Below are positions 3,486-31,688 of a DNA stretch of 32,335 nucleotides, one piece after another. The translations under genes and the position numbers were made by a program. The stretch comes from Lentisphaerota bacterium (lineage in GTDB: Bacteria > Verrucomicrobiota > Kiritimatiellia > PWTM01). Position 1 is the stretch's first letter. Every line of letters starts with the position of its first letter. The stretch lies in assembly GCA_016873715.1 (NCBI GenBank), contig VGWF01000050.1, positions 1 through 32,335 of the forward strand. The letters run 5' to 3'. The notes beneath the pieces are model-generated. The model ran no database searches. It had not been told where the DNA came from and was given only the letters and a program-made list of their open reading frames with translations.

Positions 3486-4316
3486 ATGCCGCGCATGCAG
3501 GGCGTTCCAATCGCGGTGACGATCGCCGGGGCCTACCTGGCGGGGGCGATCCCGTTCGCCTTTCTCATCGCGCGGGCGCGCGGAATCGACATCCGGACGG
3601 TGGGCAGCGGGAACGTCGGCGCGACGAACGTCTTCCGGGCGGTTGGAAAGGGGTGGGGCGTCCTGACCTTCGTCTGCGACGCCCTGAAGGGCCTGCTCCC
3701 GGCGCTCCTGGGGCCGCGCCTGCTGGAGGCGTGGACCGGCCTGCCCGCGCACCCGGCGTTCGGACTGGCCTGCGGAACGGCGGCGGTCGCGGGCCACAGC
3801 TGGCCGGTCTTCCTCGGCTTCAAGGGCGGCAAGGGCGTCGCGACGAGCGCGGGCATGCTGCTGGGCGCCGCGCCGTTCGCGGCCGCGGCGGGGTTCGGGC
3901 TCTGGATCGCCGTGTTCCTCGTCACGCGGTACGTCTCGGTCGCTTCGATCGCCGCCGCCTTCGGCGTCCCGCTCGCGGGGTGGATGGCCTACGGCCGGGC
4001 GGACGCCTGGCGGCCGTGGGTCCTGACCGCGATCGGCCTGCTCGTCATCTACCGCCACCGGTCGAATGTCCAGCGACTGATCGACGGGACGGAGCACCGG
4101 TTTGGGAAGAAGAAAGAAGACTCAACGTCCAACATCCAACATCCAACATCCAACGCCCAACACCGAACATCGAACACCGAACATCCAACATCGAACATCG
4201 AACAACGGACACCCAACACCCAGCATCCAACATCGGACACCGGACATCGGACATCGAACGGCGGATGCGGGGGGGACGACAGCGCGCCGCAGCCCGGCAA
4301 CTCTCCTCCCGCTTGA
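3486..4316 (+). CDS. plsY: Glycerol-3-phosphate acyltransferase PlsY with repeat-encoded C-terminal tail
   Basis: PlsY moves the acyl group of acyl-phosphate to glycerol-3-phosphate, the first committed step of phospholipid synthesis, in the inner membrane. The body (about residues 1-207) has the hydrophobic segments and motifs of the family: GSGNVGATN at 40-48, GHSWPVFLGFKGGKGVATSAG in the middle, and IYRHRSNVQRLIDGTE near the end. Typical PlsY ends near 200 residues, here at about FGKKKE. The frame then continues through the heptad array at 4122-4268 and adds about 68 residues of HPTSNIQ-type repeats and a Gly/Asp/Pro-rich end. The stop codon lies in a CTTGAAA repeat unit. An ATG at 3495 is an alternative start, with a weak -10 (CAGAAT) 7 bases upstream. 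gpsA, which supplies the substrate, is next. Confidence 0.92.
   Translation: MPRMQGVPIAVTIAGAYLAGAIPFAFLIARARGIDIRTVGSGNVGATNVFRAVGKGWGVLTFVCDALKGLLPALLGPRLLEAWTGLPAHPAFGLACGTAAVAGHSWPVFLGFKGGKGVATSAGMLLGAAPFAAAAGFGLWIAVFLVTRYVSVASIAAAFGVPLAGWMAYGRADAWRPWVLTAIGLLVIYRHRSNVQRLIDGTEHRFGKKKEDSTSNIQHPTSNAQHRTSNTEHPTSNIEQRTPNTQHPTSDTGHRTSNGGCGGDDSAPQPGNSPPA
4122..4268. repeat. Heptad array: 21 units of CCAACAT/CGAACAC type
   Basis: Twenty-one 7-base units run in perfect register from TCAACGT to CGGATGC. The consensus is roughly C-(C/G)-(A/G)-A-C-A-(T/C). The array lies inside the 3' part of the plsY frame. The unit contains no stop codon in any frame on this strand, and because three units equal seven codons it is read as a 7-residue protein repeat (HPTSNIQ, HPTSNAQ, HRTSNTE and so on). 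Confidence 0.95.
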
Positions 4317-4373
4317 AACGTGAAACCTGGAACTTGAGATTCCTCCACCCGGCACCCGACACCTGACACCTCC
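4312..4373. repeat. Two short heptad blocks immediately before gpsA
   Basis: Four units (CTTGAAA, CGTGAAA, CCTGGAA, CTTGAGA) at 4312-4339 are followed by four units (CACCCGG, CACCCGA, CACCTGA, CACCTCC) at 4346-4373. The gpsA ATG comes 4 bases later. The first unit supplies the TGA stop of plsY. The same order of blocks (CTTGAAA type, then CGACACC type, then a start codon) occurs before the ferredoxin gene at 10850-10932. Confidence 0.85.
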
Positions 4374-4377
4374 TCGC

Positions 4378-5376
4378 ATGCTCAACACAACGGTCATCGG
4401 CGATGGCGGATGGGGCACGGCGCTCGCGCTGGTGCTGCACCGCAACGGGCACCGGGTCCGCGTGTGGGGCCCGTTCCCGGAGTACGTCGCGGAGGTCGCC
4501 CGGCTGGGCGAGAACCCGCGGTTCCTCCCGGGGATCCCGCTGCCGCCGCAGATCGGATGGACCGCCGATCCCGCCGCGTCCGTGGCGGGGGCGGACCTGG
4601 TCGTGCTGGCGGTGCCGTCGCAGTACTTCGCGGACACGCTGCGCCGGCTCGCGCCGGCGTGGCCGGCCGGCGCCCTCGCGGTCAGCGTCACGAAGGGCCT
4701 CGACCGGCTCACCCATCACCGGATGTCGTCGGTGGCGGAGGACATCCTGGGCTCGCGGCCGGCCGTCGCCCTCTCCGGCCCGAGTTTCGCCGAGGAGGTC
4801 GCGAAGGGGCTGCCGACGGCGGTCGTGTCGGCCTGCGCCGACCCCGGGCTGGCGGCGCGGGCGCAGGACGCCTTCTCGAACGCCGCCTTCCGCGTGTACA
4901 CGTCCGACGACGTCGTCGGCGTGGAACTCGGCGGCGCGTTGAAGAACGTCATCGCCATCGCGGCCGGCGCGTGCGACGGTCTCGGCCTGGGTTTCAACAC
5001 GAAGGCGGCGCTGGTGACGCGCGGCCTCGCGGAGATGACCCGGCTCGGCGTCGCGCTCGGCGCGCATCCGCAGACCTTCGCGGGCCTGAGCGGCACGGGC
5101 GACCTGATGCTGACCTGCTTCGGGCGTCTCAGCCGCAACCGCGCCGTCGGCGAACGCCTCGGGTGCGGCGAGCGGGCGGAGGACATCCTCCGGGGCATGG
5201 CCCAGGTGGCGGAGGGCGTGACGAACTGCGACAATGCGGCGGCCCTCGCGCGCGACGCCGGCGTCGAGATGCCGATCGCCGACGCGGTGCGCGCGGTGGT
5301 CCGGGGCCGCCTGGCCCCGCGCGAGGCGGTCGCGCGCCTGATGGCGCGGGATCCGCGGCCGGAGCGGGACAAATGA
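4378..5376 (+). CDS. gpsA: Glycerol-3-phosphate dehydrogenase [NAD(P)+]
   Basis: The 332-residue cytosolic enzyme reduces dihydroxyacetone phosphate to sn-glycerol-3-phosphate, the backbone that PlsY then acylates. The length is normal for GpsA. An N-terminal Rossmann motif is present (VIGDGGWGTALA, residues 6-17). SVTKG at 103-107 and SGPSFAEEVAKG at 133-144 follow. The C-terminal catalytic domain contains GALKNVIAIAAG with catalytic Lys189, LSGTGDLMLTC, and SRNRAVGERLG. There is no visible Shine-Dalgarno; the ATG follows the heptad block directly, and no promoter is obvious, so transcription probably continues from plsY. Adjacent plsY-gpsA pairs are common in bacteria. Confidence 0.96.
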   Translation: MLNTTVIGDGGWGTALALVLHRNGHRVRVWGPFPEYVAEVARLGENPRFLPGIPLPPQIGWTADPAASVAGADLVVLAVPSQYFADTLRRLAPAWPAGALAVSVTKGLDRLTHHRMSSVAEDILGSRPAVALSGPSFAEEVAKGLPTAVVSACADPGLAARAQDAFSNAAFRVYTSDDVVGVELGGALKNVIAIAAGACDGLGLGFNTKAALVTRGLAEMTRLGVALGAHPQTFAGLSGTGDLMLTCFGRLSRNRAVGERLGCGERAEDILRGMAQVAEGVTNCDNAAALARDAGVEMPIADAVRAVVRGRLAPREAVARLMARDPRPERDK

Positions 5377-10713: not shown

Positions 10714-10928
10714 GACGCGGACGGAAGGCGGAAACGGAGACTCGGAGAACGCAGAGGCAAACACCGGAAGGCCGGACGGACGACGAAACACCAGGAAGCA
10801 AAGGACGCGAAGAGCGGAAGGAAGACGAACGCGGGCGGTCCGCCCCCAACTTGAAACCTGAAACCCGACACTCGCCACCCGCCACTCGCCACTCACCACC
10901 CACCACTCGTCACTCGACACCCGACACT
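10714..10928. repeat. fixC-fixX gap: purine-rich dispersed repeat plus nine-unit heptad array
   Basis: The block at 10714-10848 is strongly purine-rich and includes, at 10785-10820, a copy of the GCAAAGGACGCGAAG-type repeat also found at 888-924. Two heptads (CTTGAAA, CCTGAAA) at 10850-10863 lead into nine in-register units at 10866-10928: CGACACT, CGCCACC, CGCCACT, CGCCACT, CACCACC, CACCACT, CGTCACT, CGACACC, CGACACT. The ATG of the ferredoxin gene follows 3 bases later, and its first codons (ACACCCGAC) still look like repeat units. There is no Shine-Dalgarno between array and ATG. Confidence 0.85.
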
Positions 10929-10931
10929 CCC

Positions 10932-20350: not shown

Positions 20351-20379
20351 AGAATAGCGGAGGAACGCCCGACGGCGAA
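20351..20379 (-). promoter_or_regulatory. Candidate uvrB promoter, leaderless
   Basis: On the minus strand TATTCT (complement of 20351-20356) lies 6 bases before the uvrB ATG. TTCGCC (complement of 20374-20379) is a weak -35 with a 17-base spacer, and it is the edge of the heptad array. There is no Shine-Dalgarno. Confidence 0.45.
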
Positions 20380-20554
20380 CACCGAACAACGAACATCGAA
20401 CACCGAACGAGGACTCAACATCCAACATCCAACACCCAACCTCCAACACCCAACACCCAACCTCCAACACCCAACACCCAACATCCAACACCCAACACCC
20501 AACATCCAACACCCAACATCTGACACCCAACATCCGACACCCAACCTCCAACTG
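20376..20554. repeat. Heptad array, CCAACAC orientation: 5 + 20 units
   Basis: Five CGAACAC-type units (20376-20410) and, after a 4-base interruption, twenty in-register units (20415-20554) of CCAACAT, CCAACAC, CCAACCT and variants. Within the second part the triplet pattern CCAACCT-CCAACAC-CCAACAC recurs, suggesting higher-order duplication of 21 bases. It lies just upstream of uvrB. Confidence 0.95.
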
Positions 20555-20624
20555 ACAGCCAAGGCCCGACGGTCAACACCCGAAACGTCCCTTCTGCCTA
20601 TCACTCATCGCCCCCCCCCTCACC

Positions 20625-20788
20625 GTTGGCTGTTGGGTTCCGGCCGTTCGATGTTGTCCGTTGTCTGCTGGCCGTCCGCAGTTGGATGTTGGATGTTGGT
20701 TGTTGGATGTTGGATGTTGTCCGGGTCTGGCCGTTCGATGTTGGATGTTCGATGTTCGGTGTTCGATGTTCGTTGTTCTCCGTTGGCT
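20625..20788. repeat. Heptad array, GTTGGAT orientation: 15 + 8 units
   Basis: Fifteen units (GTTGGCT, GTTGGGT, GTTCGAT, GTTGGAT and variants) fill 20625-20729. After a 3-base shift, eight units fill 20733-20788. It is the reverse-complement type of the array at 20376-20554, so the two face each other around a 70-base spacer (20555-20624) that contains a run of nine Cs but no gene. The last unit provides the -35 of the next promoter. Confidence 0.95.
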
Positions 20789-23111: not shown

Positions 23112-23198
23112 AACCACATTGGGTTGGAGTCTCTACCTTTCGTGGGGTGTGGATTGAGAATGCCGCCGCGAGGAATCGTGGAGCGCAAGGGGTGCAGC

Positions 23199-26100
23199 AT
23201 GAAGCGGATCATGTCGGGTCTCGTTGTCGTCGCGATCGTTCTCGGTTCGTTCGGCGCGCGAGCGCAGGAGGAGATCTGGGACGGCGGTGGCGCCGCGGGC
23301 GGCGACGTCAACTGGAGCGCCGGCGCGAACTGGCTCGACGATTCCGCGCCGATCGCCGGGAGCGCGCTGATCTTCGCCGGTGCGCTCGACACGACCAGCA
23401 CGAACAACCTCGCGGGCACCGTCGCCATGTTCACGTGGATGGCGTTCTCGAACTCGGCGTTCACCCTCCTCGGCAATCCGTTCACGATCACCAGCGCCGG
23501 CGGCATGACGAACGACGCGGCCGCCAACCAGAACATCATCAACGTCGTCACCGCGAACGTTGCGCAGACATGGCACAGCGCCCTCGCGACGCGGACGATC
23601 ACCCTCAACTCCAACGTCGTCCTGAAGGGGAATCTCACGCTGACCGGCGGCGGCAACTTCACCTTCAACCAGCCGATCTCCGGGGCCTTCTCCCTCACCG
23701 TCGCGACGACGGGAACGGTGGCCAACATCGCCGCCACCGTCTTCAACCACACCAACACCTATTCCGGCAGCACGTTCATCACGGCGAGCAACCGGGTCCA
23801 AGCGGCCGGCAACGGGATGCCGGGCACGGGATCGATCATCATCAGCCCCGGCGGCCAGTTCTACATTTCGGGCACCGGCCGTACGTTTGCGAACAACTTC
23901 AGCATCTCCGGCAACGGCGTCGCGGACGCGGCCGCGATCGGCTACCTCGGGGCGCTCCGGCTCGACGGCGGCCATACGCTGAACGGCATCATCACCGCCG
24001 CCGCGCCGTCGCGGATCACCGCGTATACCGCGAACGACAACACGATCAACGGTCGGATCATCGGCTCGTCGACCCTGCAGAAGACCGGCGTGGGCACCCT
24101 GAACCTGAACAACCTCACGAACCTCGGCTTCACGGGCAAGTGGGAGGTCTATTCCAACGGCCTTCTCCGTGCGCGGTCGGACACGTCGCTCGGCGCGGTT
24201 CCGGGCGTCACCACGGCGGACGCGATCACGCTGAACAACGGCGCGAGGCTCATGAACAATAGCTCGCCGCTGGTGATCCACGCCAACCGCGGCATCACGC
24301 TCGCCTCGACCGGCGGCGCGTTGCAGTCCGGCTGGTGGACGGACGTCAAGGTGAACAGCATCATCGCCGGCCCCGGCGCGCTGACCATCGCCCAGGACGC
24401 CACCCCGGGCTGGATCATCCTGGCCGGCCAGAACACCTTCGACGGCACCCTGACCATCGACGCCCGCCTGCGCCTGGGCGTGAACGACGCATTGCCCAAC
24501 GGCACGGGCAAGGGGAACGTCCTGCTCAACCCCGGCAACGCGCTTCTCAACAACGGCAACCTGCGCGTGATGGACATGAACGGCTTCTCCGACACCATCA
24601 ACGCCCTCAACGGCGGCGGCGCGCTGACGAACAGCCGCGGCAACGCCGTGCTGACGCTCGGCGACAACAACGCCAGCGGTTCCTTCACCGGCAGCGTCGC
24701 CGCCGCGGCCAACGGGACGCTCCGCCTCGTCAAGATCGGTGCGGGCGCCCAGACGCTGCTCGGCGACATCCGCAACGGTGTCGGCCTGCATATCGCCTCG
24801 GGCTTCATGATCGCGACCGGCAGCTTCGGGGCCGGGGTTTCGTCGGATGCGTCGGGCGTTCTGGTCGCCCGTGATGCGGCCGCCGGCCGGGTTTCGACCC
24901 CGGGCACGATGGCCCTGACGAACGCGAGCCTCTCGTTCAACCCGGGCGCGGGTGCCGAGGGCGATCTCTACGCGGCCAACGACATCGAGCTCAACGGAAC
25001 CGTCAATGTCTACGTGACGCCGTTGAAGGCCATCGACAGCACGCCCTTCCTTCTCTTCTCCTACACGAACAGCATCGCCGGGTCGGCAGCCAGCCTCAAC
25101 GTGCAGCCCGCCGGCACGCGCTACACGGCCTTCACCGCCAGCGACGTCGCCGGCGGCATCGCGATCGCCATGACCGGCTCCGGAGGCCCGGCGACGCTCA
25201 ACTACATCGGCACGAATGCCGCGTGGGACGTCACGAACGCGGCGAGCTTCTACAACACCGGCACGACCTCGACCGACGTGTTCTACCACGCGGACACCGT
25301 GGTCTTCGACGCGGACGTGAAGACCAACGTCGTCAACCTGACCGGCGCGCTCGCCCCGGCCAGCGTGATCGTCGGGGGGCCGACGAACCTGACCTTCCAG
25401 GGCACCGGCCGGCTCTCCGGCCTGGCCACTATTTACAAGGGCGGGACCAACATCCTCGCGATCAACAACGCCAACGACTTCGACGGCGCGGTCGTCGTGA
25501 CCGGCGGCGTGCTGCGGGCCGGCAACGCGAGCGCCCTCGGTTCCACGATGGGCGCAACCTGGGTCACCAACGGCGGCACGCTCGACGTCAACGGCCAGAA
25601 CCTCGGCCTGGAGGACTTCTACCTCGGCGGCGCGGGCGCCGGCGGCACGGGCGCGGTGATCAATACAGGTGGTCAACAAGTGAACGCGATGCAGCGCGTC
25701 ACGCTGGTCGCCGACACGGTCATCGGCGGGGCGGTCCGGTTCGATATCCGCCACGCCGGCATCCTGTGGCCGACGAACAACGCCTTCCTGAGGACCGACG
25801 GCGGGATCTACAGCCTGACCAAGACCGGCACGGCCGAATTCGCGATGCCGAACGTCAACGTCAGCGACGGCATCGGGAACATCTTCATCGACTCCGGCCT
25901 GCTGCGCTCCGAGACCGGCACGACCGGCCTCGGCAACCCGGCCTACACGGCACGGGTGGCCCGCGGCGCGACCCTCGACATCTACAGCCATACCAACGCC
26001 ATCAACAAGTACATCACGCTGGAGCACGGCTCGCGGCTCACGTCGCAGGTCGGCGCCAATGCCGCGCTGAACGTCCTGCTGGGAACCGTGACGCTGAACG

Positions 26101-29100
26101 GATGGGCGACGAACGAAGTGCGGGGCGGCCACCAGACGCTCGCCGGCACGATCACCGGGGCCGGGGGCTTCACGGTCCTCAGCAACGGTACGACCTACAT
26201 CACCGGGACCAACGACTGGACCGGCGGCCTGATCGTCAACACGAACGCGAACCTCAACGTCGGCAAAAGCGGCCTCGGCGGCACCCTGGGCAGCGGCTCG
26301 GTGACGAACTTCGGCAACCTCTACTTCACGCGCACCAACGCCTACACGATCGCCAACGAGATCGTCGGCCGCCCGGAGGCGCTGATCGCCAAGCAGAATC
26401 TCGGCACGCTGACCCTCGACGGCATGGCGGCCAATTACCTCGGCAACTTCCAGCTCCAGGGCGGCACGCTGCTGATCGGGCCGAGCTACGTCAGCGGCAC
26501 CAACCAGATCGAGTTCACGTCCACGAACGCCGTCATCGCCTCCTCCGACGGCACGGCCCGCACGATCAGCAACCTGACGTGGTGGACGCAGGGACCGCAA
26601 ATCGGCGCCGGTGGCGATCTCACGTTCTCCGGCGTGACCCACAACAACGGCGTCGCGAGCAAGGCGATCAGCGTCTCGAACAGCCTGACCCGCTTCACGG
26701 GCACTCTCTACGGCGTCGGCACGGTCGCCAAGCGCGGGCCCGGCGAACTGCGGTTCGAGAACGCCGTGAGTGCGTCGAGCTTCACGAACCTCGAGGGCCG
26801 GCTGACGCTGACCGGCGCGGGAGCCTTCACCCACGCAACGGCGGCGCTGACGTTCAATCAGGGCTCGGTCTTCGACGTCGCGGGCGTCACGGGCGGCTGG
26901 TACCTGCGGCAGGGCCAGACGCTGCGCGGCAACGTCGGCGTGGTCGGCGATTCGCTCATCAGCAACAGCTTCGTCCGTCCCGGCGCCTCGGCCGGGACGA
27001 TCACCTTCAGCAACAACGTCACGTTCAGCAACGCGGACGTCGAATTCGAGCTGGCCTCCGACGGAACGCCGGGCGCCGGGATCAACGACTACATCGAGAC
27101 GATCGGCAACCTGACGCTCTCCGGCGTCAGCACGGTGCGGGTGGTGGCGCTGAACAACCAGTTCGCGCCCACGCACGTCCTGTGGACCAACGGCGGGACG
27201 CGGACCGGCGGCGCGGCGAACCTGCTGCTGGCCAACGTCGGGATCATGACCAACAGCCGGTACGGCTTCGCGATCAGCGACGCCGACCCGCAGCGGATCG
27301 TGCTCAACGTCTCCGGAAGCGCCAAGGCGCTGACGTGGCAGGGCGGCGCGACCGGCTTCTGGAACGCCAAGGGCTCGACCAACAACTTCCTCGACGGCGT
27401 AACGCCCGACGCCTTCTGGCAGGCCGACTCGGTGACCTTCGGCGGCAGCGCGACGCGCCGGACGGTCACGATCGCCGAGCCCGTCGCCCCCGGGCTCGTC
27501 ACGGTCTCGGCGCCGTACACGCTCGCGATCGCCGGCTCGGGCAAGATCACGGGCGGCGCGACGCTTCTGAAGACGGGGGATGGGGCCCTCATCATCAACA
27601 ACCCGCACGATTTCACCGGCGCGACGCTCATCAGCAACGGCATCGTCCAGGCCCGCGCCAACACCGCGCTCGGCACCGCTGCCGGCGGGACCTACATCGC
27701 GGCGGGCGGCACGCTGGACACGTACGGCAACAACCTCGGCTACGAGCACGTCTACGCGGTCGGAGCCGGCTACACCAACGGCGGCGCGATCGTCAACCTG
27801 AGCGGCGTCGCGCAGACTCAGACGCTGCGGCGCGTGACGCTGACGGGCGATACGACCCTCGGCGGCGTTTCGACGTGGGATCTCCGCGGCGTGAACATCG
27901 CGGACGGCTGGCTCAGCACCGGCGGCAATGCCTACAACCTGATCAAGGTCGGCACCAACACGATCCGCCTCGTGGATGTCGCCGTCGACGCGGCGCTGGC
28001 CGACATCGAAATCCGGCAGGGCGTCCTCGGGTTCGAGGCGTCGACCCCCGGCCTCGGCAATCCGATGAAGACCCTGACGGTCTACCCGACCGCCAGCCTG
28101 TGGTTCAACTCGATCAACGCCCCGGTCGCCAAGAACGTCATCCTGCAGGACGGCGGCGGCATCTGGCTCCAGGGCGGCGCGATCGGCAGCAGCCAGAACT
28201 TCTTCACCCAGCCCGTCGTGCTCAGCAACGGACTGGGCATCGTGGACGGCGGCGCCAACGGGCTTTTCAGCCAGTTCACCGGCGCCGGCGGGCTGCGCAA
28301 GCTCGGCGCCGGCGAGGTGTGGCTGACCGGCACGAACGACTTCACCGGCCAGTTCCGGATGAGCGCCGGAGCGCTGCGGCTGATCAGCAATGGCTCGATG
28401 ACCGCGGTGTCCGGCGTCCTCATGGAGGGTGGAACGCTCCACCTCGACAACAGCCGTGACAATCTCGGCAACCGCCTCAACGATGCGGCCGGCATCACGG
28501 GGTGGGGCGGCACGATCAACTTCGCCACGGCCAACAGCATCGGCGTGACGGAATCGATCGGCAACGTCCTCATGGAGCGCGGCGGTCTCACGATCAACCT
28601 TGAGATGCCGGTGGCCTTCGGGACGACGTCCACGGTGTTCATCGCCGGCCTCTCGCAGCAGCAGGGGATCCTGAACTTCACCTTCGGCAATTCGGGCACG
28701 TTCTTCCCGGGGCAGAATCCGTCGAACAACTACGGCGCCCACATCATGGTCGGCGGGCTGACGAACGGCCAGACGATCCCGTGGGCGACGGTCAACGGCG
28801 CGGGTTTCGCCCGCTACAGCACGACGAACGGCATCTACGCGCCGCTGGAGATCGCCGAGTTCAACGCCGCGGCCGACCAGACCGGCCAGGATCTCCGCTT
28901 CACGTTCGAGCGCGACGGCGGCGCCAACGTCCTCACGGCGAGCCGGTCGATCAACACGATCGTCGTGTCCAACCAGTACAACACGTTCATCGACCTCGCC
29001 GGCAACGACCTGACGCTCTCGGGCGGGGGCTACCGCCAGCTCGGCAACGAGAACTTCATGATCACGAACAGCGGCGTCGGTGGCTCGCTGATCGCCGGGG

Positions 29101-31688
29101 ACGCGGTCTTCTTCGTCAACAGCTCCACCACCCGCCTGGCGTCGGCGGCCACGCTGACGAGCCTCGCCAAGGAGGGCGGCGGAACGCTGATCGTTCTCGG
29201 CAACCTGAGCTACACGGGGCGGACCGCGATCAACGGCGTCCTGCAGGTCGGCGAGGGCGGAGCGGCGTCGATCCCGACCGACACGCCGGTTTACAACCAC
29301 GGCACGCTGAGGTTCCGCACGACGACGGATCTGGACTTCTCGTCCAACATCCGGGGCCTCGGCGGCATCGAGAAGTTCTTCCTCAACACGCTGACGCTCT
29401 CCGGCACGAGCAACCTGATCGGCGGAAGCTTCAATATCTACAGCGGCGCGGTGGTGTTCGCGGCGGGAAGCTCCACCTACATGACGAACATGAACGGCAC
29501 GTTCGCCATCGGGTCCTCCAACACAAGCCCGATCGCAACGATGACGATCAAGCCGGGCGCACTGCTCGATCTCGGCGCCATCAACAACTTCTTAGGAGCC
29601 AACTACGCGCCCAACAACCACAGCATCATCAACCAGGAAGGCGGCACGTTCCTCATCGGGTCCACCAACCTGAACAACGTCCGGTTTGCTCACTGGCCCG
29701 GCAGCAACATCTACAACATGGCCGGTGGGCTGCTGGTGGTGTCGAACCGCCTGACGCTGGCATGGGACGGCCGGAGCTACTTCAACCAGAGCAACGGCAC
29801 GGTCAAGGCCGGACAGATCACCCTGACCCCGCTCGACGGCACCGCCCGGGTCCGGACCTCGCAATGGAATCTGGTCAACGGCACGCTGTTGCTCGGCACG
29901 GGCGGCATGACGGTCAATTCGAACAACATGACCGCGCCGCAGCAGTTCAACGTCGGGAGCGGAACGCTGGCCGCGTGGAAGACCAACACGCAGGTTTCGC
30001 AGCGCATTCCGGTCAACATCAGCGGCGCGCTGACGCTGGACGGCGTCGCGGGCGACACGGTCGAGATGCTCGGCCGCACGGCGGGCGCGGGCGCCATCAC
30101 CAAGATCGGCGCGGGCACGGCGATCCTGGCGGGAACCAACCTGCACCTGGGCGGCACGACGATCAGCAACGGCACGCTCGCGGTCAAGACGGGCAATGCG
30201 CTCGGGTCGGGCACGCTGACGATGTCCGGCGGCACGCTGAACCTGAGCCTCGCCGGCCTCAACGAGGCGGATCTCGCCGGCAACTTCAACCAGAACACGA
30301 ACCCGGTGGGCACGGTGACGCTGGGTACCTCCCTGGCGCACTTCGAGCAGAGCGTCTCCAGCGGGCAGTTGGCGGGCAACGCGACGGCGGGGTATCGCGG
30401 GTTCCTCGTCGTCGGCGGGCCGACGAACGTCACCTACACGTTTGCCGAGAGCTTCGACGACAACGTGATGCTGCGGATCACGACGGGCGGGGTCGTCAAC
30501 ACGGTCCTGAACAATACATCGTGGAACACGCCGACCAAGGGCACGATCACGCTGGCGCCGGGCCGCTACCTGTTCGACCTGCGCGTCGGCAACGGCGCCG
30601 GCGGCGGCGGCGCGGCCGGGCACGGCTGGTGGACCAACGTGTGGACGATGGGCTTCGGTTACGACCCGCAGGGCCGGGACCAGGAAATCGTCGGAAACTA
30701 CATCAAGATGACCGATCCGGGCGACGGCAGCCTGTTCCTGTCCGACACGAACGGGTTCACGGTGCCGAATACGGTCGACGTGACGGCGGATTCGGCGATC
30801 AGCCTGATCGGGGCGGGCGGCGCGAAGATGACGATGTCCGGCCCGTTCGGCATCGGGTCGCAGCGGCTGACGGTGACCAACACGGGGGCCGGCGCGTTGG
30901 CCCTGACGGGGCCGATGACGCTCTCCGGCTCGCCGACGTTCGATGTGGTGACGAACGTCACGGTCACGGCGGCCGGCGCGATCGGCGGCGGCGCCAACGG
31001 CATCAACAAGGCCGGCCCCGGCACGCTGCGCCTGACCGGGACGAACACCTACACGGGCACGACCCGCGTCATGGACGGCGTGATGGAACTGGCCGAGTTC
31101 GGCGAGATCGGATCGAGCGCGACACTCCGGATCGATGCCGGGGCGAAGTTCGTCGCGACGAACAACGCCGGGGGAACGATCCACCTGGTCTCCGGGATGA
31201 CCCTGCAGGGCAACGGCACGTTCGAGGGCGGCCTGATCACCGACCCCGGCTCCGCCGTCGCCCCGGGCGTCGGCGCCGCCGGAAGCCTGACGGTGATGGG
31301 CAACATGCAGGCGGAGAACGTGACCACGTTCTCGATCGAAATCAACGGCACCACGCCGGGAACGCAGTACGACCAGCTGGCGTTCGGCGGAGGAAACACG
31401 TACACGCTGACGCTGAACAGCCCCGATCTGCAGGTGCTGCTGGGCTACACGCCGGCCTACGGCAGCACGTTCGCGATCGTCTCGGGCTTCGGGACGCTGG
31501 CGGGCACCGGCGAGTTCAACGGCAAGACGGACGGCTCGACGTTCACGGTCGGCGCGACGGAGTTCCAGATCGACTACAACCCCAACGACATCACGCTGAC
31601 GGTGGTGCCCGAGCCCGCGAGCCTGGGCGTCATGGGCCTGCTCGGCATCGCCGGCTGGCTGCTCCGCCGTCGCGCCCGCACGCACTGA
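23199..31688 (+). CDS. Giant exported beta-strand-repeat protein with PEP-CTERM sorting signal
   Basis: The 2,829-residue product begins MKRIMSGLVVVAIVLGSFGA, a Sec signal (cleavage near RAQ/EE). The bulk is Gly/Asn/Thr-rich with repeats of the autotransporter-associated type, roughly 'KxGxGtLxLxGxNxYtGxTxxxxG': near residues 293, 510, 745, 875, 1177, 1457, 1700, 1990, 2302 and 2602 (the last INKAGPGTLRLTGTNTYTG). Larger modules opening with W..G....W....NW occur at about 26 and 1378, with a related start at about 665. The C-terminus has VPEPASLGVMGLLGIAGWLL followed by RRRARTH: PEP motif, membrane helix, basic tail. There is no autotransporter beta-barrel. Such proteins are thought to be processed by exosortase and sent to the envelope or matrix; no exosortase is in the window. 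ATG 23199 has an AAGGGG site; a longer frame upstream is not needed. A structural or adhesive role is inference. Confidence 0.93.
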   Translation: MKRIMSGLVVVAIVLGSFGARAQEEIWDGGGAAGGDVNWSAGANWLDDSAPIAGSALIFAGALDTTSTNNLAGTVAMFTWMAFSNSAFTLLGNPFTITSAGGMTNDAAANQNIINVVTANVAQTWHSALATRTITLNSNVVLKGNLTLTGGGNFTFNQPISGAFSLTVATTGTVANIAATVFNHTNTYSGSTFITASNRVQAAGNGMPGTGSIIISPGGQFYISGTGRTFANNFSISGNGVADAAAIGYLGALRLDGGHTLNGIITAAAPSRITAYTANDNTINGRIIGSSTLQKTGVGTLNLNNLTNLGFTGKWEVYSNGLLRARSDTSLGAVPGVTTADAITLNNGARLMNNSSPLVIHANRGITLASTGGALQSGWWTDVKVNSIIAGPGALTIAQDATPGWIILAGQNTFDGTLTIDARLRLGVNDALPNGTGKGNVLLNPGNALLNNGNLRVMDMNGFSDTINALNGGGALTNSRGNAVLTLGDNNASGSFTGSVAAAANGTLRLVKIGAGAQTLLGDIRNGVGLHIASGFMIATGSFGAGVSSDASGVLVARDAAAGRVSTPGTMALTNASLSFNPGAGAEGDLYAANDIELNGTVNVYVTPLKAIDSTPFLLFSYTNSIAGSAASLNVQPAGTRYTAFTASDVAGGIAIAMTGSGGPATLNYIGTNAAWDVTNAASFYNTGTTSTDVFYHADTVVFDADVKTNVVNLTGALAPASVIVGGPTNLTFQGTGRLSGLATIYKGGTNILAINNANDFDGAVVVTGGVLRAGNASALGSTMGATWVTNGGTLDVNGQNLGLEDFYLGGAGAGGTGAVINTGGQQVNAMQRVTLVADTVIGGAVRFDIRHAGILWPTNNAFLRTDGGIYSLTKTGTAEFAMPNVNVSDGIGNIFIDSGLLRSETGTTGLGNPAYTARVARGATLDIYSHTNAINKYITLEHGSRLTSQVGANAALNVLLGTVTLNGWATNEVRGGHQTLAGTITGAGGFTVLSNGTTYITGTNDWTGGLIVNTNANLNVGKSGLGGTLGSGSVTNFGNLYFTRTNAYTIANEIVGRPEALIAKQNLGTLTLDGMAANYLGNFQLQGGTLLIGPSYVSGTNQIEFTSTNAVIASSDGTARTISNLTWWTQGPQIGAGGDLTFSGVTHNNGVASKAISVSNSLTRFTGTLYGVGTVAKRGPGELRFENAVSASSFTNLEGRLTLTGAGAFTHATAALTFNQGSVFDVAGVTGGWYLRQGQTLRGNVGVVGDSLISNSFVRPGASAGTITFSNNVTFSNADVEFELASDGTPGAGINDYIETIGNLTLSGVSTVRVVALNNQFAPTHVLWTNGGTRTGGAANLLLANVGIMTNSRYGFAISDADPQRIVLNVSGSAKALTWQGGATGFWNAKGSTNNFLDGVTPDAFWQADSVTFGGSATRRTVTIAEPVAPGLVTVSAPYTLAIAGSGKITGGATLLKTGDGALIINNPHDFTGATLISNGIVQARANTALGTAAGGTYIAAGGTLDTYGNNLGYEHVYAVGAGYTNGGAIVNLSGVAQTQTLRRVTLTGDTTLGGVSTWDLRGVNIADGWLSTGGNAYNLIKVGTNTIRLVDVAVDAALADIEIRQGVLGFEASTPGLGNPMKTLTVYPTASLWFNSINAPVAKNVILQDGGGIWLQGGAIGSSQNFFTQPVVLSNGLGIVDGGANGLFSQFTGAGGLRKLGAGEVWLTGTNDFTGQFRMSAGALRLISNGSMTAVSGVLMEGGTLHLDNSRDNLGNRLNDAAGITGWGGTINFATANSIGVTESIGNVLMERGGLTINLEMPVAFGTTSTVFIAGLSQQQGILNFTFGNSGTFFPGQNPSNNYGAHIMVGGLTNGQTIPWATVNGAGFARYSTTNGIYAPLEIAEFNAAADQTGQDLRFTFERDGGANVLTASRSINTIVVSNQYNTFIDLAGNDLTLSGGGYRQLGNENFMITNSGVGGSLIAGDAVFFVNSSTTRLASAATLTSLAKEGGGTLIVLGNLSYTGRTAINGVLQVGEGGAASIPTDTPVYNHGTLRFRTTTDLDFSSNIRGLGGIEKFFLNTLTLSGTSNLIGGSFNIYSGAVVFAAGSSTYMTNMNGTFAIGSSNTSPIATMTIKPGALLDLGAINNFLGANYAPNNHSIINQEGGTFLIGSTNLNNVRFAHWPGSNIYNMAGGLLVVSNRLTLAWDGRSYFNQSNGTVKAGQITLTPLDGTARVRTSQWNLVNGTLLLGTGGMTVNSNNMTAPQQFNVGSGTLAAWKTNTQVSQRIPVNISGALTLDGVAGDTVEMLGRTAGAGAITKIGAGTAILAGTNLHLGGTTISNGTLAVKTGNALGSGTLTMSGGTLNLSLAGLNEADLAGNFNQNTNPVGTVTLGTSLAHFEQSVSSGQLAGNATAGYRGFLVVGGPTNVTYTFAESFDDNVMLRITTGGVVNTVLNNTSWNTPTKGTITLAPGRYLFDLRVGNGAGGGGAAGHGWWTNVWTMGFGYDPQGRDQEIVGNYIKMTDPGDGSLFLSDTNGFTVPNTVDVTADSAISLIGAGGAKMTMSGPFGIGSQRLTVTNTGAGALALTGPMTLSGSPTFDVVTNVTVTAAGAIGGGANGINKAGPGTLRLTGTNTYTGTTRVMDGVMELAEFGEIGSSATLRIDAGAKFVATNNAGGTIHLVSGMTLQGNGTFEGGLITDPGSAVAPGVGAAGSLTVMGNMQAENVTTFSIEINGTTPGTQYDQLAFGGGNTYTLTLNSPDLQVLLGYTPAYGSTFAIVSGFGTLAGTGEFNGKTDGSTFTVGATEFQIDYNPNDITLTVVPEPASLGVMGLLGIAGWLLRRRARTH

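Follow-up and report, generated by a model that had tools for sequence, protein, structure and literature searches.

In the stretch of DNA analysed here (32,335 nt; the window), the reading frame of plsY continues beyond the end of the enzyme into an array of heptad repeats (unit RACAYCS) at the junction with gpsA, and is predicted to provide PlsY with a disordered C-terminal tail (Table 1). The tail is very probably the outcome of a generic process, in which a gene without a stop codon at the edge of an array is read through. Judged from the DNA, the tail is present, but it appears to be one instance of a broader, partly known phenomenon.

Table 1. Coordinates of plsY, its tail and neighbourhood in the window, and other genes of the genome with in-frame heptad arrays.
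Feature	Location	Strand	Remarks
plsY body (glycerol-3-phosphate acyltransferase)	3495..4118	+	Residues 1-208, ending ...EHRFGKKKE; PF02660, TIGR00023, 5xj5, AlphaFold
In-frame C-terminal tail (predicted)	4119..4316	+	65 codons and TGA stop; open frame, pLDDT, codon score
TCA codon at array edge	4122..4124	+	Register in which four other genes of the genome have a TGA stop
RACAYCS heptad array, 20 units	4124..4263	+	No stop in any of the three sense frames
Second heptad run (TTGAAAC GTGAAAC CTGGAAC TTGAGAT)	4313..4340	+	Its TGA gives the stop of the tail; from sequence
gpsA	4378..5376	+	PF01210/PF07479; adjoins plsY as in most relatives
KamA-type radical SAM aminomutase	L268:1554-2804	+	In-frame insert of ~48 residues, partly heptad-encoded
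Sulfatase	L093:2097-3869	-	Two separate in-frame heptad-encoded inserts
Topoisomerase VI-B	L137:1082-2809	-	Heptad-encoded linker, variable among relatives
MurU/AmgK-like protein	L100		In-frame array, 32 units
Ferredoxin-like protein	L124		In-frame array
Proteins of unassigned family	L108 (plus strand), L240, L267		In-frame arrays

The plsY frame is uninterrupted from its ATG to the TGA at 4314-4316. The predicted protein has 273 residues, whereas members of the family usually comprise ~195-235 residues and end near EHRFGKK; this departure concerns the tail and not the family membership. Full-length matches to PF02660 (E = 1.8e-53; 181.5 bits against a curated cut-off of 24.1) and TIGR00023 (E = 3.2e-48; 164.1 bits against 137.2) end at residues 197 and 206, respectively (numbered on the translation from 3489), and the solved PlsY of A. 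aeolicus (5xj5), which itself finishes near the same motif (EHRFG), is alignable up to residue 205. These end points agree with an earlier note on this DNA, which had placed the end of the body near residue 207, at the normal length of the family. The motifs GSxNxGATN, GHxxPxxxxFxGGKG, and the C-terminal H..N..R...G.E are invariant columns in an alignment of 34 sequences, and the AlphaFold model of the body has pLDDT values mostly above 90 up to residue ~200.

The tail that follows GKKKE has 65 residues (DSTSNIQHPTSNAQHRTSNTEHPTSNIEQRTPNTQHPTSDTGHRTSNGGCGGDDSAPQPGNSPPA). The earlier note had given about 68 hydrophilic residues derived from repeat DNA; the hydrophilic character was confirmed (GRAVY -1.6), but only ~48 residues are repeat-encoded, and the final 17 (GCGGDDSAPQPGNSPPA) are not. 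Tryptic peptides predicted from the tail include TSNTEHPTSNIEQR. In the AlphaFold model, pLDDT falls to 43-58 from about residue 211 onward and the tail is without secondary structure, which predicts that it is disordered. The codon score per codon is -0.30 in the tail versus 0.36 in the PlsY body; among the gene ends of the genome (mean 0.33, sd 0.14), only 2 of 646 score as low. Such a distance from the coding usage of the genome is expected of raw repeat DNA that has not been shaped as coding sequence. PlsY has seven membrane helices; the enzyme has been expressed with a C-terminal eGFP, and two UniProt entries represent natural C-terminal fusions to another domain (PMC5700162), so that a free tail is likely to be tolerated. 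The predicted tail is probably tolerated rather than selected, and may be selectively near-neutral.

The units of the 20-heptad array core stand in perfect register, with C invariably at positions 3 and 6 and either G or C at position 7. The period-7 self-identity of the array is 0.78, compared with 0.31 in shuffled sequences (maximum 0.46 in 5000), and Tandem Repeats Finder detects the array with scores from 112 (period 7) up to 129. The unit is stop-free in all six frames; as seven is also not divisible by three, every frame is open across the array. Three heptads correspond to seven codons, as had been noted from the sequence. The frame is indeed open throughout the 21 heptads counted previously, but the core of the array comprises 20, so that both the count and the coordinates given earlier were right to within one unit. 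Between the array and the second heptad run lies non-repeat DNA (4264-4312). The frame then stops in the first CTTGAAA-type unit of that run, in agreement with the earlier reading; CTTGAAA as an array family was sought across the genome, but three perfect units in a row were not found. The RNA of the array folds less well than its own shuffles (z = 1.25) and is thus not unusually structured. Neither a promoter nor a terminator pattern was found around plsY and gpsA, and searches of their junction for structured RNA and for known RNA families were likewise negative.

The tail is confined to this genome among those compared. The genome (5.13 Mb; a draft of 289 contigs), from an uncultured bacterium, groups with Kiritimatiellota, and the closest named PlsY loci are those of Kiritimatiellales, Kiritimatiellae, and Verrucomicrobia/Lentisphaerae MAGs; the relatives include eight genomes of the same family and none of the same genus. 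When the tail was sought in the PlsY of relatives, it was absent from all 50 loci (48 genomes) of the class, where PlsY ends 0-25 residues past the core and usually just before gpsA, and also from 62 PlsY loci of named genomes, where the longest extension has 20 residues. Counting the window, 51 loci were compared; in 38 of them a GpsA motif follows plsY within 900 nt, and its distance from the plsY stop is at most 40 nt in 28 of these 38. In the window, the GDGxWG region of GpsA is 79 nt from the plsY stop with the tail and would be ~290 nt away without it; gpsA itself begins ~270 nt beyond the PlsY body and 61 nt beyond the stop of the tail. The short spacing in the relatives implies that the repeat-bearing DNA occupies a junction that is tight elsewhere. 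In one distant member of the class (G057, locus L035), an AGTGACG-type heptad run directly follows the plsY stop, indicating that the junction bears such arrays also in other genomes, there behind an intact stop codon.

Heptad arrays are abundant throughout the genome. An oriented search of 2.31 Mb (~45% of the genome) yielded 152 arrays with 1463 heptads of the RACAYCS unit, and a single detector applied to a sample of 0.42 Mb found 53 period-7 arrays but only 0-5 arrays for each of six other periods. Five consecutive RACAYCS units were matched in 15 of 58 genomes, with 428 matches in this genome versus 60 in the next. Other period-7 families are also present (CCCTCGY, CACTCGM, and AGAGCRR), and the window itself contains intergenic CCCTCGY and CACTCGM arrays (2474-2550 and 10847-10930), which are unlike RACAYCS. 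As in bacterial intergenic heptad arrays in the broad sense, most of the RACAYCS arrays are intergenic and few lie within genes. They are preferentially located behind genes, with same-strand gene ends 0-30 nt 5' of an array in 23 cases and near ends on the opposite strand in 3, a coding-strand placement near stop codons of the Xanthomonas/Nostoc type. Of the 134 arrays outside genes, 104 lack a stop in each of the three sense frames, so the openness of the array under PlsY requires no special cause. Nevertheless, read-through is not the rule: among ~30 genes that abut an array, only plsY and the gene of the L240 protein, which has no known family, read into it at the C terminus.

The tail of PlsY therefore does not stand alone. 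The claim that a heptad array is translated as a tail of PlsY holds at the level of sequence, but it overlooked about eight other genes with in-frame arrays and the many genes with an array behind them. In the aminomutase, 63 residues replace the 15 found in 2a5h, directly after the CRHCTRR of the CxxxCxxC motif. The sulfatase has 78 residues where 7oze has 11 (~67 extra), and its second insert is located near residue 209. The L240 protein provides the second case of a C-terminal array-derived tail. When only genes whose coding signal is solid are counted, nine, among them plsY, have the array in sense orientation and encode hydrophilic peptides, whereas two have it in antisense orientation and encode DVGCWML-type peptides. 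This bias is only suggestive, because few genes are involved and they were called with a home-made codon model rather than a published caller. Further array-spanning frames (L108 on the minus strand, L123, L131, and L089) have weak coding scores and were set aside as probable non-genes. In the topoisomerase VI-B of a relative (G040, locus L154), the same linker seems, judged by its sequence (LKPETGNLKLR...FQVSGFSSQVSS), to hold a different heptad family.

The proposed origin of the tail begins with a spreading or slippage-prone RACAYCS repeat that would have arisen at the junction of plsY and gpsA. Without a stop at the array edge, PlsY would be translated through the array to the TGA in the neighbouring heptad family, presumably also in vivo. 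The result would be a disordered, hydrophilic tail on an end of PlsY that is cytoplasmic by homology, a place that should tolerate additions, and the same process would insert repeats in frame into other proteins, at loops, linkers, and termini that are permissive. The register of the array edge hints at a way in which the stop could have disappeared. A stop codon is present at the array edge in 18 genes; in 4 of the 18, it is a TGA that spans two units, with its first two bases at positions 6 and 7 and its last at position 1 of the following unit (TGA-AC). PlsY enters the array in the same register with TCA-AC, and across the genome C and G are about equally common at position 7 (780:636). 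In the simplest scenario, the stop once belonged, or would have belonged, to the array, and may be absent because the first unit has a C at its variable G/C position.

The same register lends some plausibility to a consensus or assembly error, in which case the true plsY would have a stop at the array edge and the tail would not exist. A single-base difference at 4122-4124 (TGA instead of TCA) would end PlsY there, as it does the four genes with TGA in that register, and the genome is a draft of many contigs. Against an error speaks that the units of the array differ from one another, so that the array is not a collapse-prone perfect repeat, and that an error would have to recur in the about eight other genes with in-frame arrays, three of which were checked against solved homologues. 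An erroneous frame shift was rejected as the cause of the tail, because the array has no stop in any of the three frames, so that shifting the frame would not bring an early stop back. Overall, an error is improbable, and generic read-through of the array remains the favoured origin.

It is even less probable that the tail was selected because it keeps ribosomes moving through the array, places termination 61 nt rather than ~270 nt from gpsA, and thus preserves coupling and avoids an untranslated gap. The tight spacing of plsY and gpsA in relatives would fit such a role, as would the array RNA, which is not unusually structured, and the negative search for promoter and terminator patterns around both genes. 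However, most genes that precede an array stop before it, and the codon usage of the tail is unlike that of the genome. A function of the tail itself, such as binding of a partner or the membrane, would have a parallel in the two natural fusions of PlsY to another domain (PMC5700162), but is very unlikely, given that the tail is absent from all relatives examined, is predicted to be disordered, has a composition set by the DNA repeat, and shares its peptide type with unrelated proteins.

Comparable repeat systems are known from other bacteria. Cyanobacteria have short tandemly repeated repetitive (STRR) heptads, which form seven-base, degenerate, intergenic arrays of variable copy number; the RACAYCS arrays resemble them in type but differ in unit and lineage. 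The palindromic elements of Rickettsia are repeats of ~100-150 bp that are inserted in frame into genes and translated at permissive sites. By contrast, the region at plsY is a heptad array rather than a hairpin, and does not belong to these elements. A precedent is provided by the TAACTGA arrays of Beggiatoaceae, which are mostly intergenic, with some overlapping stop codons. Some of those in stop-free orientation are translated into heptapeptides, one case being the extreme C terminus of the essential MurG (MacGregor 2015, PMC4679880). Both systems place heptad arrays in frame at the end of an essential enzyme (in PlsY, by prediction). However, TAACTGA contains stops in all frames of one orientation, whereas RACAYCS is degenerate and stop-free in six frames. 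Moreover, TAACTGA is found mainly before start codons, whereas RACAYCS arrays often follow stop codons and occur also inside enzyme domains; among 74 RACAYCS arrays with a same-strand gene downstream, only 10 end within 30 nt of the start of that gene. Together with their different unit, this sets them apart from the TAACTGA family. In Xanthomonas and Nostoc, GGGAATC and GGGGA(C/T)T arrays near stop codons form G-quadruplexes and are under-represented in coding regions (PMC4692102), whereas RACAYCS lacks a G-tract on either strand and is not a member of this group. The precedents in Xanthomonas/Nostoc and in MurG place the tail of PlsY in an already known kind; the present genome goes beyond them in how many arrays it carries in frame and in having some of these within conserved domains of enzymes.

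The case illustrates how non-coding repeat DNA may become protein: with a unit that is stop-free and of a length not divisible by three, only a missing stop is needed. The occurrence of several cases in one genome, including conserved enzymes, renders the tolerance of proteins towards repeat-derived insertions testable. More tentatively, stop-free heptad arrays might be a standing source of translated sequence in this lineage, expanding in frame at gene ends and inside genes, for the most part oriented so as to yield hydrophilic HPTSNIQ-type peptides. They would continually supply housekeeping enzymes with new tails and linkers that are disordered, while selection acts as a filter on orientation and site; this generalization is possible rather than probable. 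A literature search returned no report on heptads in Kiritimatiellota. For annotation, the case serves as a warning that tails or N-terminal extensions composed of HPTSNIQ or DVGCWML are repeat DNA. Upstream of uvrB in the window (20365-20787), arrays of both orientations are present, and an open frame lengthens UvrB by ~70 residues upstream of its likely start, largely of the DVGCWML type; this extension is a trap for gene callers. The window also contains one open frame of ~2,840 codons (23160-31688) with autotransporter-like repeats and a PEP-CTERM-like end (C terminus VPEPASLGVMGLLGIAGWLLRRRA).
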